Shown here piece by piece: positions 5,090 to 46,404 of a stretch of 64,000 nt of DNA (the stretch's first letter is position 1; every line of letters starts with the position of its first letter). Below the pieces are notes generated by a model, which saw only the letters and a list, made by a program, of their open reading frames with translations, did not search any database and was not told the origin of the DNA. Source of the stretch: Methanomicrobiaceae archaeon (GTDB lineage: Archaea > Halobacteriota > Methanomicrobia > Methanomicrobiales > Methanomicrobiaceae); assembly GCA_016926855.1 (NCBI GenBank), contig JAFGNT010000004.1, positions 124,001 through 188,000 on the forward strand, read 5' to 3'. The position numbers and the translations under genes are program-made.

Positions 5090-7063
5090 GTGGCAGGACC
5101 GGGCGAAAAAACAGGAAACACGGCAGTGGAAGGGAACCGTACCTTTACTCCCGGGGATACCTATCAGGAAATCTTCGAATCGACGGAGAACATCGCGTTC
5201 ATCCTTGATAAGAATGCGACGATTCTTTTTGCCAATTCCACTTTTTCGCAAATGATGGAATGCAGCCTGGACGAGATCGAGGGCGTCTCGACGATCACGC
5301 AATTCATCCACCCCGGTGATCGGAACCTTGTGATGCGCAACAACGTTCTCACGCAGAAGGATCCCGGCGCGATCCCTCGCGCCCATGAGGTCCGTTTCAT
5401 CGATAAAAAAGGGAACACTCATAACGTTCTCGTTACCGCAGCCCTGATTCCCGGAACAAAGCGTACTATTGTCTCAGGCAGAGACATAACACTTCACCGT
5501 GAGATCGGAGATGCGCTCATCCGGAGCGAGGCTCAATACCGCCGTTTTGTCGAAAATCACCCGGATCCGCTGTTAATCCATGCTGACTGGGTGATTGCCT
5601 ATCTCAACCCTGCCGCCGCAACACTCTTCGGGACCACGGGTCCGGAGGAGCTAATCGGGAGGCCTATCCTTGACTGCATCGCTCCCGAATGTCGGGAGAT
5701 CGTTCGCGGGCAGATACGGGAGGGGTATCGGGGAGTGAAGGGATCGGCTTCTGAGCAGAGGCTCATCTGTTGCGACGGGAAAATCATCGATGTTGAGATG
5801 ACGAACGTGCCCTCGGAATTCGACGGTGTGCCCGCGATACAGGTGATCATACGCGAAATTACGTTCAGGAAAAAGACGGAGGCGCAGATCCGTACATGGA
5901 ATAACCAGATGAGGGTGATCAATAAGATCATCCAGCTCGCAAATTCATCACTGAACCTTGACGAGATGCTCGAAATAATCCTGGACAACACCATTGAACT
6001 GCTTGATTTCGATGCGGGCAGCGTATACCTGAAAAATCGGAATGGAAATACTGCCGATCTCGTCGTGACGAACGGGCTTCCGGAAATGTTCTGTCGTGAA
6101 GAAAAATCCGTAAACATAAGGGACTGGCCCTACAATCTCGTCTTTTTTGCCGGGCAGCCGCGATATATTGAAAACCGCCCGGGTCTGTCTCCCGGCCTGA
6201 TCGAGTCGAGGATGCTGGAAGATATTGATGCGTACGCACTTGCCGGGATTCCCCTTATCACCGAGTCGGTGGTCGTGGGTGCCCTCTATATCGCCCGCCG
6301 GTCCGGGGACCATTTTACCGAGGACGAGAAGGCAACCCTTGAGTCTATCGGCAAGGAGATCGGCGGCACGATTCTCCGGGGTATGCTCCAGGACTCACTC
6401 GAACGGGCGTACGAAGAGACAAGCTCTTATCTGAATATCATCGAAAAAAGCATTCGCAAGTCAAACGATGCGCTGCTCGCCTATGTGCGTGCAGCACGCG
6501 ATATCGGATGCCCGACGGAGTCGCTTACGGAGATGATCGCGCAATCACTCCGGCAGAGCAGCGAGCTTATCAACAATATCGCCACTATACGGCGTATTAA
6601 TGAGCTTCCTGAAGATATTGGGGTCATTTCCCTGGATGACAGGATAGAGGGAGCAGTCGCTGCGTTTCCGGATGTGCGGATTACCTGGGAAAAAAACGGG
6701 CTTTTCGTCTACGCCGATGAATTCCTCTTCGAGCTCCTTTCTAACCTGATTACGAACAGCATCCAGTTCGGGGGTCCGGACGTGGATATCTGCATCAGGA
6801 CGGAAATGCAGGATGAAATGGTGTGGGTTTCTGTGGAGGACACAGGCCCCGGAATTCCTGACGCGGATAAGCGCCGTATCTTCACCTGCTTTGATCCGCT
6901 TGCCCGCAGTTCCAGCAAACGGGGGCTTGGCCTGCATATCTCCCAGATGCTCGTTTTGCGATACGGTGGAAATATCTGGGCGGAAGACCGCGTTTCAGGC
7001 GATCCCTCGCATGGTGTCGTAATACGGTTCACGCTTCCTGTCGCGACGGAGGAGAGCGAATGA
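5090..7063 (+). CDS. PAS-PAS-GAF sensor kinase-like protein lacking the acceptor histidine
   Basis: 657 residues, no membrane segment, so a cytoplasmic sensor. Order: PAS (about 25-140, IFESTENIAFILDKNATILF), second PAS (about 150-265), GAF (about 285-435, LDEMLEIILDNTIELLDFDA), dimerisation helices (about 445-520) and HATPase (about 540-650). The ATPase boxes look intact: N-box FELLSNLITNSIQ, G1 VEDTGPGIPD, G2 KRGLGLHIS. In the H-box, where the related kinase at 44098-46404 reads YLDIMAHDLNN, this protein reads YLNIIEKSIRK, so the acceptor His is Lys453. It probably cannot autophosphorylate in the normal way and may act in hetero-dimers or as a regulator. The start is GTG 5090 with GGTGAT upstream. 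No response regulator is adjacent. Confidence 0.88.
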   Translation: MAGPGEKTGNTAVEGNRTFTPGDTYQEIFESTENIAFILDKNATILFANSTFSQMMECSLDEIEGVSTITQFIHPGDRNLVMRNNVLTQKDPGAIPRAHEVRFIDKKGNTHNVLVTAALIPGTKRTIVSGRDITLHREIGDALIRSEAQYRRFVENHPDPLLIHADWVIAYLNPAAATLFGTTGPEELIGRPILDCIAPECREIVRGQIREGYRGVKGSASEQRLICCDGKIIDVEMTNVPSEFDGVPAIQVIIREITFRKKTEAQIRTWNNQMRVINKIIQLANSSLNLDEMLEIILDNTIELLDFDAGSVYLKNRNGNTADLVVTNGLPEMFCREEKSVNIRDWPYNLVFFAGQPRYIENRPGLSPGLIESRMLEDIDAYALAGIPLITESVVVGALYIARRSGDHFTEDEKATLESIGKEIGGTILRGMLQDSLERAYEETSSYLNIIEKSIRKSNDALLAYVRAARDIGCPTESLTEMIAQSLRQSSELINNIATIRRINELPEDIGVISLDDRIEGAVAAFPDVRITWEKNGLFVYADEFLFELLSNLITNSIQFGGPDVDICIRTEMQDEMVWVSVEDTGPGIPDADKRRIFTCFDPLARSSSKRGLGLHISQMLVLRYGGNIWAEDRVSGDPSHGVVIRFTLPVATEESE

Positions 7064-7203: not shown

Positions 7204-7371
7204 ATGGCAAAATTGCGGGAGCTTGTTTCTCTCACCCTGATATCGTGTACAGGTATCTTATGGTCGGCCTTTCTCTTTATCCAGGAGACCTGGCGGTTGA
7301 TGAGCTTTATGATCTTCGGGATTATCGCTCTCACAAATTTCATGGTGCTTGCCCTGCGGATATACCAGTAA
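7204..7371 (+). CDS. Small membrane protein (55 aa, two spans)
   Basis: ATG 7204 to TAA 7369-7371. After a short charged N-terminus (MAKLRELV) there are two hydrophobic segments, LTLISCTGILWSAFLFI and FMIFGIIALTNFMVLAL, joined by QETWRLMS, so a helical hairpin is likely. The codons are normal for the genome. A perfect AAAGAA-CTG-TTCTTT inverted repeat follows at 7379-7393 and may mark the transcript end. The family and function are unknown. Confidence 0.5.
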   Translation: MAKLRELVSLTLISCTGILWSAFLFIQETWRLMSFMIFGIIALTNFMVLALRIYQ

Positions 7372-44097: not shown

Positions 44098-46404
44098 TCA
44101 TCCCTTTCCGGAATGTGCCACGTCTGTCCGGCCGGAACCCACACCGTTTCTTTGGTACGTGTTCAGGGTAAAACATATTGTCATTCCCTCGCCAGGGTGC
44201 CCGGGAATCCGGTCCTCAGCCCAGATGCGGCCGCCGTAACTCTCGATCAGCATCCTGCAGATCGACAGGCCGAGCCCTTTGCCGCTCCTGCTGCTGTTGC
44301 CTGTTTCGAACCGGTTGAAGATCCGTGATTTGTCGGGCATGCCCGGCCCCGTGTCGGAGACGCTGACGATAACCTGTTTGTCCTTCTTTTCTACGCCGAT
44401 GGCAATCCTCACATCATCTCCGCCGAATTTTCTGCTGTTGGTGATGAGGTTCGTGAACACTTCTGAGAGGAGTTCGTTTGCGCATACGACTGCACCCGAA
44501 GGAGTAAAGTCGATATGCACATCAGAAAAGTTTTTGATGTCCGCCCTGATGATTTCATCGAGAGGCACCGGCTGGATTTTCTGCTTTATATCGCGTATTT
44601 TCCGTATCGTCGACACATTGTCGATAATTTTTGCACTCTGCTGTACACTCGAGAGGATCTTGTGAATATACTCCGACGGGGCGCCTTCCGGTATCAGTCC
44701 GGCAAGGATCTCAGCATATCCGAGGGATATAGTGTTGATATTATTAAGGTCATGGGCCATGATGTCGAGGTAGAGGTTTGCCTCTGTGTTGGACTGCTCC
44801 AGCTCTTTCCTGAGTGTGTTCTGGAGGATGGCACTGGCAAGTTCGCGGCCAAGGGTGATAATCATCGCCTTCTCTTCCTCCGAAAACAGTGAACGATGCC
44901 TGCTGGCGATGAACATCACCCCGACCGTCCGTTCCTCGGTTGAAAGCGGAATGGCTGCAAACACTTTCATGCCGATTTTCCGGGCGAATATCCTGAGTGA
45001 ACTTGCCGATGAAGATTCATCATCCGTTGTGGTCACCTCGGAAAAAGCGGGTTGCGACCGGATGAAGTACTCGTGGTAGGGTTCAATGCCGGTCTCCAGT
45101 TTTTGTAGGGAGCGGTCAAATTCGGCCTTTTCCACGTCGGTGAGTCCCTGGACCGTTATCAGGCCCGCTTCCTGTGTTCCGCTTTCGGTGAGATAGATTG
45201 CCCCGGCATCGAAATCCAGCATACCGAGAATCTGAGCGAGTGAGAAGGTTAAAAATGCATGGGTTTTGCATGACGACGTCGCTGCTTTAATTATTATATT
45301 GATGATGGAAAGCTGGCTGTTTCGAACAGCCAGAGCATTTTCAAAAGATTTTCGCTCAGAGATGTCTACGAAGATTCCCCGGAATCCGATTATCTCATCA
45401 TTTTTTAAAATCGGTGATAAATATATCATTGCCGGAAATGTGGTCCCGTCTTTTCGCAGTCCTGTATATTCGACGCCATTCGGACTTGCCTCACCGCGAG
45501 TGCGCCGTAATAAATTATCATGCATCCGCTGTCTCTCATGTTCTGGCATAATCTGGTCAGCATTGATGCCCTGTGCAACATCGGAGGCAGTATAGCCAAA
45601 CGTTTCGATACCGCTTTTGTTCGCGAATGTGATCTCTCTGTTCAGGTCGAGTTCGAAGACAGCCTGTGGCAGCAGGTCGGCGAGTTCGCGGAACCGGTGT
45701 TCGCTTTCGCGCAGGGTATCCTCCGCACGTTTCCGCGCGGTGATGTCGGTCAGGATGAGAATCACGGTGTCTCCCATGAGTGTACCGCCCGTGATAAGAC
45801 AGCTGACCTGGCGGCCGCCCGAATCCGTGAGTGTTATCTCCTGTTCGCACACGGTTCTCTCCTCCCGAAGCCTCCCGAAAAACGTTGCACGCTCGTCGAC
45901 ATCCGTCCAGTAGTCGAAGAAAGACTCTCCGGCCTCTTTCTTATTGAGGCCACCGAACAGCGGCTGGCACTGGCTGTTTGATTCGCGCACCATGCCGGTC
46001 TCCGCATCGATAAGGCAGATGCAGCTCCCGGAATTATCGAACACGTTGCGGTATTTCAGTTCGTTTATCCTGATTGTCGACGAGAGAGAGGATACCACGA
46101 GTCCGACGCTGACATACACATAGAATTGCATGGCAGCTGTCAGGAGCTCCATCGTGGGAGGATTGACATACCAGAAGACTCCGAGGTAGATGAAGCTGAT
46201 TATCGTCGCACTCATGACGCCCCTTCTTGGATAATGGAATGCGGCGAATACGACCGGAAAATAGAAGAAATGGGTGATGACAATGGTAAAATTGTCCGAG
46301 ATGACAAAGAGAATGATCTCTGCTATCACGAGCGTGAAGAGAACTATGCCGAGAATTACCTCCGTCACGATGTCTTTCCGGGTATATGTCCCTTTCCCGT
46401 TCAC
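44098..46404 (-). CDS. Membrane-bound PAS-PAS-GAF sensor histidine kinase
   Basis: 768 residues. Four membrane spans occupy about 15-125 (VILGIVLFTLVIAEIILFVI, THFFYFPVVFAAFHY, MSATIISFIYLGVFWYV, FYVYVSVGLVVSSLS). They are followed by PAS (about 130-245), a second PAS (about 245-365), GAF (about 385-530), dimerisation and ATPase domains. The acceptor is His551 in DIMAHDLNN. ATPase boxes are VFTNLITNSRKFG, VSDTGPGMPD and GKGLGLSIC. It is a full kinase closely related to the cytoplasmic one at 5090, which has lost the acceptor His. The start is GTG 46404 with GGTGAACTGAT upstream. No partner receiver is adjacent. Confidence 0.93.
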   Translation of the reverse strand: MNGKGTYTRKDIVTEVILGIVLFTLVIAEIILFVISDNFTIVITHFFYFPVVFAAFHYPRRGVMSATIISFIYLGVFWYVNPPTMELLTAAMQFYVYVSVGLVVSSLSSTIRINELKYRNVFDNSGSCICLIDAETGMVRESNSQCQPLFGGLNKKEAGESFFDYWTDVDERATFFGRLREERTVCEQEITLTDSGGRQVSCLITGGTLMGDTVILILTDITARKRAEDTLRESEHRFRELADLLPQAVFELDLNREITFANKSGIETFGYTASDVAQGINADQIMPEHERQRMHDNLLRRTRGEASPNGVEYTGLRKDGTTFPAMIYLSPILKNDEIIGFRGIFVDISERKSFENALAVRNSQLSIINIIIKAATSSCKTHAFLTFSLAQILGMLDFDAGAIYLTESGTQEAGLITVQGLTDVEKAEFDRSLQKLETGIEPYHEYFIRSQPAFSEVTTTDDESSSASSLRIFARKIGMKVFAAIPLSTEERTVGVMFIASRHRSLFSEEEKAMIITLGRELASAILQNTLRKELEQSNTEANLYLDIMAHDLNNINTISLGYAEILAGLIPEGAPSEYIHKILSSVQQSAKIIDNVSTIRKIRDIKQKIQPVPLDEIIRADIKNFSDVHIDFTPSGAVVCANELLSEVFTNLITNSRKFGGDDVRIAIGVEKKDKQVIVSVSDTGPGMPDKSRIFNRFETGNSSRSGKGLGLSICRMLIESYGGRIWAEDRIPGHPGEGMTICFTLNTYQRNGVGSGRTDVAHSGKG

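Follow-up and report, generated by a model that had tools for sequence, protein, structure and literature searches.

Results

A 64,000-nucleotide stretch of DNA from a Methanomicrobiaceae archaeon (the window) carries, on the forward strand at positions 5090 to 7063, a gene with a GTG start codon that encodes a His-less sensor kinase of 657 amino acids with the layout PAS-PAS-GAF-DHp-CA. The genome encodes McrA, indicating that the organism is a methanogen. Pfam matches in the protein are PAS, PAS, GAF, and HATPase_c; HisKA gave no Pfam match. The two PAS domains span residues of about 30 to 260 (positions 5177 to 5869), and the GAF domain covers residues 288 to 427 (5951 to 6370). They are followed by the DHp helical hairpin (residues 431 to 505; 6380 to 6604), with helices predicted at residues 411 to 472 and 476 to 505, and by the HATPase_c (CA) domain (6719 to 7045; Pfam E value, 3.8e-21). 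An AlphaFold model of the protein contains a DHp hairpin and a CA fold (mean pLDDT, 84), but its domain arrangement is not trustworthy, since the pTM is just 0.47. Among the closest solved folds in a fold search were HK853, WalK/YycG, FixL chimeras, and NifL-NifA (9qq6). Shortly 3′ of the kinase gene, between it and an FMN reductase gene, is an open reading frame for a hydrophobic 55-amino-acid protein (7204 to 7368, forward strand), which is 65% identical to its copy in a sister species.

We aligned the protein with 25 relatives. In this 26-protein alignment, Lys453 (codon AAA, positions 6446 to 6448) occupies the column of the acceptor His, as a preliminary description of this DNA had proposed from a comparison with a His-containing kinase encoded on the reverse strand at 44098 to 46404. 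The sequence YLDIMAHDLNN of the latter corresponds to YLNIIEKSIRK here, and other relatives have YLDIMxHDIxN. The acidic residue after the acceptor site, Asp in relatives, is Ser454, and the +4 position, Asn in most relatives, is Lys457. Together, these three replacements mean that the entire H-box chemistry is lost. A substitute His in the dimerisation helices, which the preliminary description had named as grounds for abandoning its claim, does not occur within residues 431 to 520. In HisKA-type kinases the +4 Asn serves dephosphorylation, and a kinase of this type without the His is incapable of normal autophosphorylation. The former His site is occupied by a basic patch, Lys453-Arg456-Lys457.

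The ATPase core is preserved, again as originally described. The N box (6725 to 6775) retains Asn556, the G1 box (DTGPGI, 6839 to 6856) and the G2 box (GLGLH, 6923 to 6937) are unbroken, and the F box (F598) is also present. Residue 559, three positions after the N-box Asn, is Gln here and Lys in most relatives, including the sister species; hence, the core motif is intact, yet the ATPase domain is imperfect. Measured against a functional sensor histidine kinase, the protein thus has the N, G1, F, and G2 motifs, with Gln559 as a minor departure, and lacks the acceptor His in DHp helix 1. HATPase_c occurs in about 19 kinase-like proteins of the same genome, and among these no other lacks the His while having an intact CA domain. 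A further kinase-like protein of the genome, L054 (G000:C27:140158-140442), has Thr in place of the His (ITRTDLEN), and its CA domain is degraded.

Within the genus, the comparison was with one other genome, that of the sister species. Its ortholog (L002/L063) is 58% identical and syntenic, with the kinase gene, the 55-amino-acid open reading frame, and the FMN reductase gene in the same arrangement. It has R-S-I-R-R where the protein studied here has K-S-I-R-K: positions 453 and 457 are Arg (codons AAA/CGG and AAG/CGC, respectively), and Ser454 and Arg456 are unchanged. Charge is therefore preserved at both substituted sites, and loss of the acceptor is neither chance nor an assembly error. 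Because Lys/Arg exchange is frequent elsewhere in the pair (10 of 30 changed K/R sites), we regard the basic patch as suggestive only.

Synonymous divergence between the two orthologs is near saturation (dS, 2.4), and overall dN/dS is about 0.13 by the Nei-Gojobori method, a rough value at such divergence. Judged by these rates, both genes are under strong purifying selection. Identity between the orthologs is 77% in the GAF domain, 73% in the DHp hairpin, 58% in the CA domain, and 41 to 42%, the lowest of all parts, in the PAS domains. The ratio of CA dN to DHp dN is 1.53, compared with about 0.95, 0.97, 1.22, and 1.25 for four pairs of His-containing kinases from the same two genomes. These identities and ratios indicate that the dimerisation hairpin is strongly retained and the ATPase domain a little less strictly. 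The DHp surface thus appears to be guarded, although it is not phosphorylatable. Gln559 and the slightly faster evolution of the CA domain could reflect a weakening nucleotide site. According to the preliminary description, His at this position in relatives would mark a recently dead gene. Remoter orthologs do have His, but the sister species is His-less too and both genes are under purifying selection; this is not a recently dead gene.

To place the substitution among relatives, we scored 108 distinct DHp-CA proteins, a set picked by similarity to the kinase and hence not a census. The acceptor His is present in 94, of which 93 have all six scored CA residues. It is absent from the remaining 14, and among these the full six-residue motif is found only in the kinase and its ortholog. 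All 14 belong to one ortholog group of 27 sequences that is confined to the archaeal family of the window; the other 62 sequences in the kinase tree, which covers one order, all have His. Within the group, the acceptor site is Lys or Arg in the window's genus; His in genera g4, g5, and g6 and in one paralog of g8; Asn in a g8 paralog that bears an N-terminal receiver-like domain; Gln in another g8 paralog; and Asp, Glu, or Lys in g2, g3, g7, and g9, where the CA domain is erased. The CA domains of the His-less members form a graded series: intact in the window's genus, damaged at G2 in the g8 paralogs, and erased in g2, g3, g7, and g9. Open frames are kept even in the CA-erased branch, so decay of the whole gene is not seen. 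The best tree requires three acceptor changes, although a tree with all His-less proteins in one clade is not rejected (AU P value, 0.16); repeated loss of the His is therefore favoured, though unproven.

Some features of the relatives are recorded here for completeness. The Asn-site proteins of g8 (L065:13471-16152, L066:6205-8901, and L067:3880-6573) have the layout REC-PAS-GAF-DHp-CA and are encoded in clusters with a His kinase, a HisKA kinase, and a receiver-only protein. In two of the three species, Gly replaces the Asp of the receiver (ILLGLN), so both ends of these proteins look inactive. The third g8 paralog (L107, L108, and L109) has Gln at the His site (GQDM or EQHL) and a damaged G2 box. 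Apparent in-frame TGA codons were seen in many relatives; in the one examined, the alignment had overrun an ordinary stop codon. Scans with the kinase protein gave one weak bacterial match and nothing useful in genome contigs and no match in viral contigs.

Whether or not they have His, the kinases of g2, g3, g4, g5, g6, g7, and g8 have neighbours drawn from a HAD hydrolase, DUF2099, an HGSNAT-like acyltransferase, and adenine deaminase. On the basis of this shared set, these kinases are positional orthologs. A gene for the membrane protein TspO/MBR lies directly upstream of the kinase gene, on the same strand, in 9 of 13 His-keeping genomes (G004, G006, G008, G011, G017, G018, G019, G023, and G025; an example locus is L065:5840-6352). 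TspO was not found in G005 or G012; in G014 it is on a different contig, and the kinase gene there is truncated where its contig ends. G021 has a broken TspO remnant with three stops (C40:29197-29406) beside a His-containing kinase. TspO is next to the kinase in none of the His-less orthologs. In the His-less genera g2, g3, and g7, the kinase has kept its place next to the HAD gene, and TspO lies elsewhere. The reverse holds in the window's genus, where TspO remains at the HAD block (G000:C15:10496) and it is the kinase that lies elsewhere. In g8, the TspO-linked copy has His and the other two copies have lost it. The association of TspO with His amounts to about three independent contrasts, all in the same direction, and is suggestive but not significant by itself.

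The preliminary description had also put forward the kinase at 44098 to 46404 as a possible partner. That protein has a weak HisKA match and is 34% identical to the His-less kinase, with which it can be aligned through the DHp and CA domains. However, it belongs to a different branch of the tree, its gene is 37 kb away on the opposite strand, and nothing singles it out; it is neither a linked gene nor the closest paralog. Within the window, and likewise in the sister genome, no receiver or kinase gene adjoins the His-less kinase gene, and hence we name no partner. Elsewhere, the genome offers 16 receiver domains and its HDI-type kinases as candidates for binding.

Discussion

The most economical reading of these data is that the kinase is a sensory pseudokinase, able to bind nucleotide, whose DHp hairpin serves as a docking or regulatory surface for a receiver or a kinase, a mode of action resembling that of DivL or NifL. 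We put the probability of this reading at about 0.5. Selective loss of the His from a protein whose ATPase core is conserved, a pattern that has persisted through long divergence, agrees with the pseudokinase role originally suggested; the partner suggested with it is not supported. Nucleotide binding is predicted because the CA core is retained, and dimerisation and docking are predicted because the hairpin is retained. The PAS and GAF domains would sense a signal, and the CA domain would still bind ATP or ADP. The hairpin would be neither phosphorylated nor, without the Asp and the +4 Asn, capable of normal phosphatase action; with its basic patch, it may instead offer a protein-docking surface. 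The docked partner would most likely be a receiver domain, perhaps when phosphorylated, or else a kinase, whose activity would be altered according to signal and nucleotide. Binding of nucleotide, absence of autokinase activity, docking, and the existence of a partner are all inferred.

Loss of the His with retention of the CA motif would be best accounted for by the main rival explanation, which we nevertheless think unlikely: the protein pairs with a kinase that has the His, and within this heterodimer its intact CA domain either transfers phosphate to the partner's His or is restrained by the partner, so that only its own acceptor is dispensable. Heterodimers of a pseudokinase and a paralogous kinase are documented for ChrS/HrrS, although there it is the CA domain that is lost rather than the His (PMC9491836). 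Several His-containing relatives are encoded in the same genome, but no candidate stands out, the kinase at 44098 being in another branch and just 34% identical. A retained CA motif would also suit a kinase that uses ATP to phosphorylate Ser, Thr, or Tyr or a distinct substrate, the activity proposed for the MA_type 2 kinases; RdmS, which hydrolyses ATP but shows no autokinase activity, is proposed by its authors to act on an unknown substrate (PMC11784639). The same authors, however, withdrew an earlier claim of tyrosine autophosphorylation as unspecific, and the CA motif decays in all other His-less branches, the opposite of what a gained activity predicts. We consider this explanation rather improbable.

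The graded CA series, together with Gln559 and the faster evolution of the CA domain, might instead reflect slow decay of a kinase that is dispensable in the window's genus and is losing function, first the His and then the CA domain. We think this the least probable of the explanations, given the open frame, 58% identity at near-saturated dS, a dN/dS of about 0.13, a DHp hairpin that is 73% identical, and core motifs that are all retained in both species.

The sensory pseudokinase reading can be extended to the history of the ortholog group in a scenario that we consider doubtful but worth stating. The group may have turned repeatedly from kinase to pseudokinase, each time on uncoupling from the neighbouring TspO gene. 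In that case, TspO and the kinase would together form a genuine two-part sensor, and copies released from the pair would be phosphate-independent readers, here with a Lys/Arg patch that binds a phosphorylated receiver. The TspO linkage provides a concrete first guess at the purpose of the ancestral kinase. Few histidine-kinase pseudokinases have been studied so far. This one ortholog group spans working-type kinases, His-less proteins with an intact ATPase core, and forms in which the ATPase domain is damaged or erased, a graded series with which experiments can separate what phosphorylation, nucleotide binding, and docking each contribute. In the open-licence literature, we found no archaeal paper describing Lys or Arg at the acceptor site or linking TspO with a histidine kinase.

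Of the known systems, the HDI-type methanogen kinases, such as that at 44098, share superfamily and architecture with the His-less kinase but keep the His, Asp, and Asn. In NifL, PAS sensors, a kinase-like DHp domain, and a nucleotide-binding CA domain control a partner, the activator NifA, without phosphotransfer. The likeness to NifL lies in the PAS sensors and the kinase-like DHp and CA domains and includes the fold match to 9qq6; we do not take it as orthology. A census of archaeal kinases describes the converse class, with His present and the ATPase domain missing (PMC5847659). RdmS and MsmS of Methanosarcina acetivorans, the MA_type 2 kinases, are, like the protein described here, methanogen sensor kinases without an acceptor His; RdmS both binds ATP and hydrolyses it (PMC11784639). 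In those proteins, however, the H-box region is reportedly absent altogether, whereas the present kinase retains an H-box helix that can be aligned, carries point replacements, and derives from an HDI-type kinase. DivL of Caulobacter has Tyr at the acceptor site and reads DivK~P (PMC4211667). Like DivL, the kinase combines PAS sensors with a DHp-CA module of histidine kinase fold in which the acceptor His is replaced and the DHp domain is kept, and its gene is conserved and constrained. DivL is not an ortholog: it is bacterial, has Tyr550 rather than Lys or Arg, binds ATP weakly, and has known partners, CckA and DivK. His-less, ATP-hydrolysing methanogen kinases and DivL are thus already known, and the present kinase adds the Lys/Arg variant.
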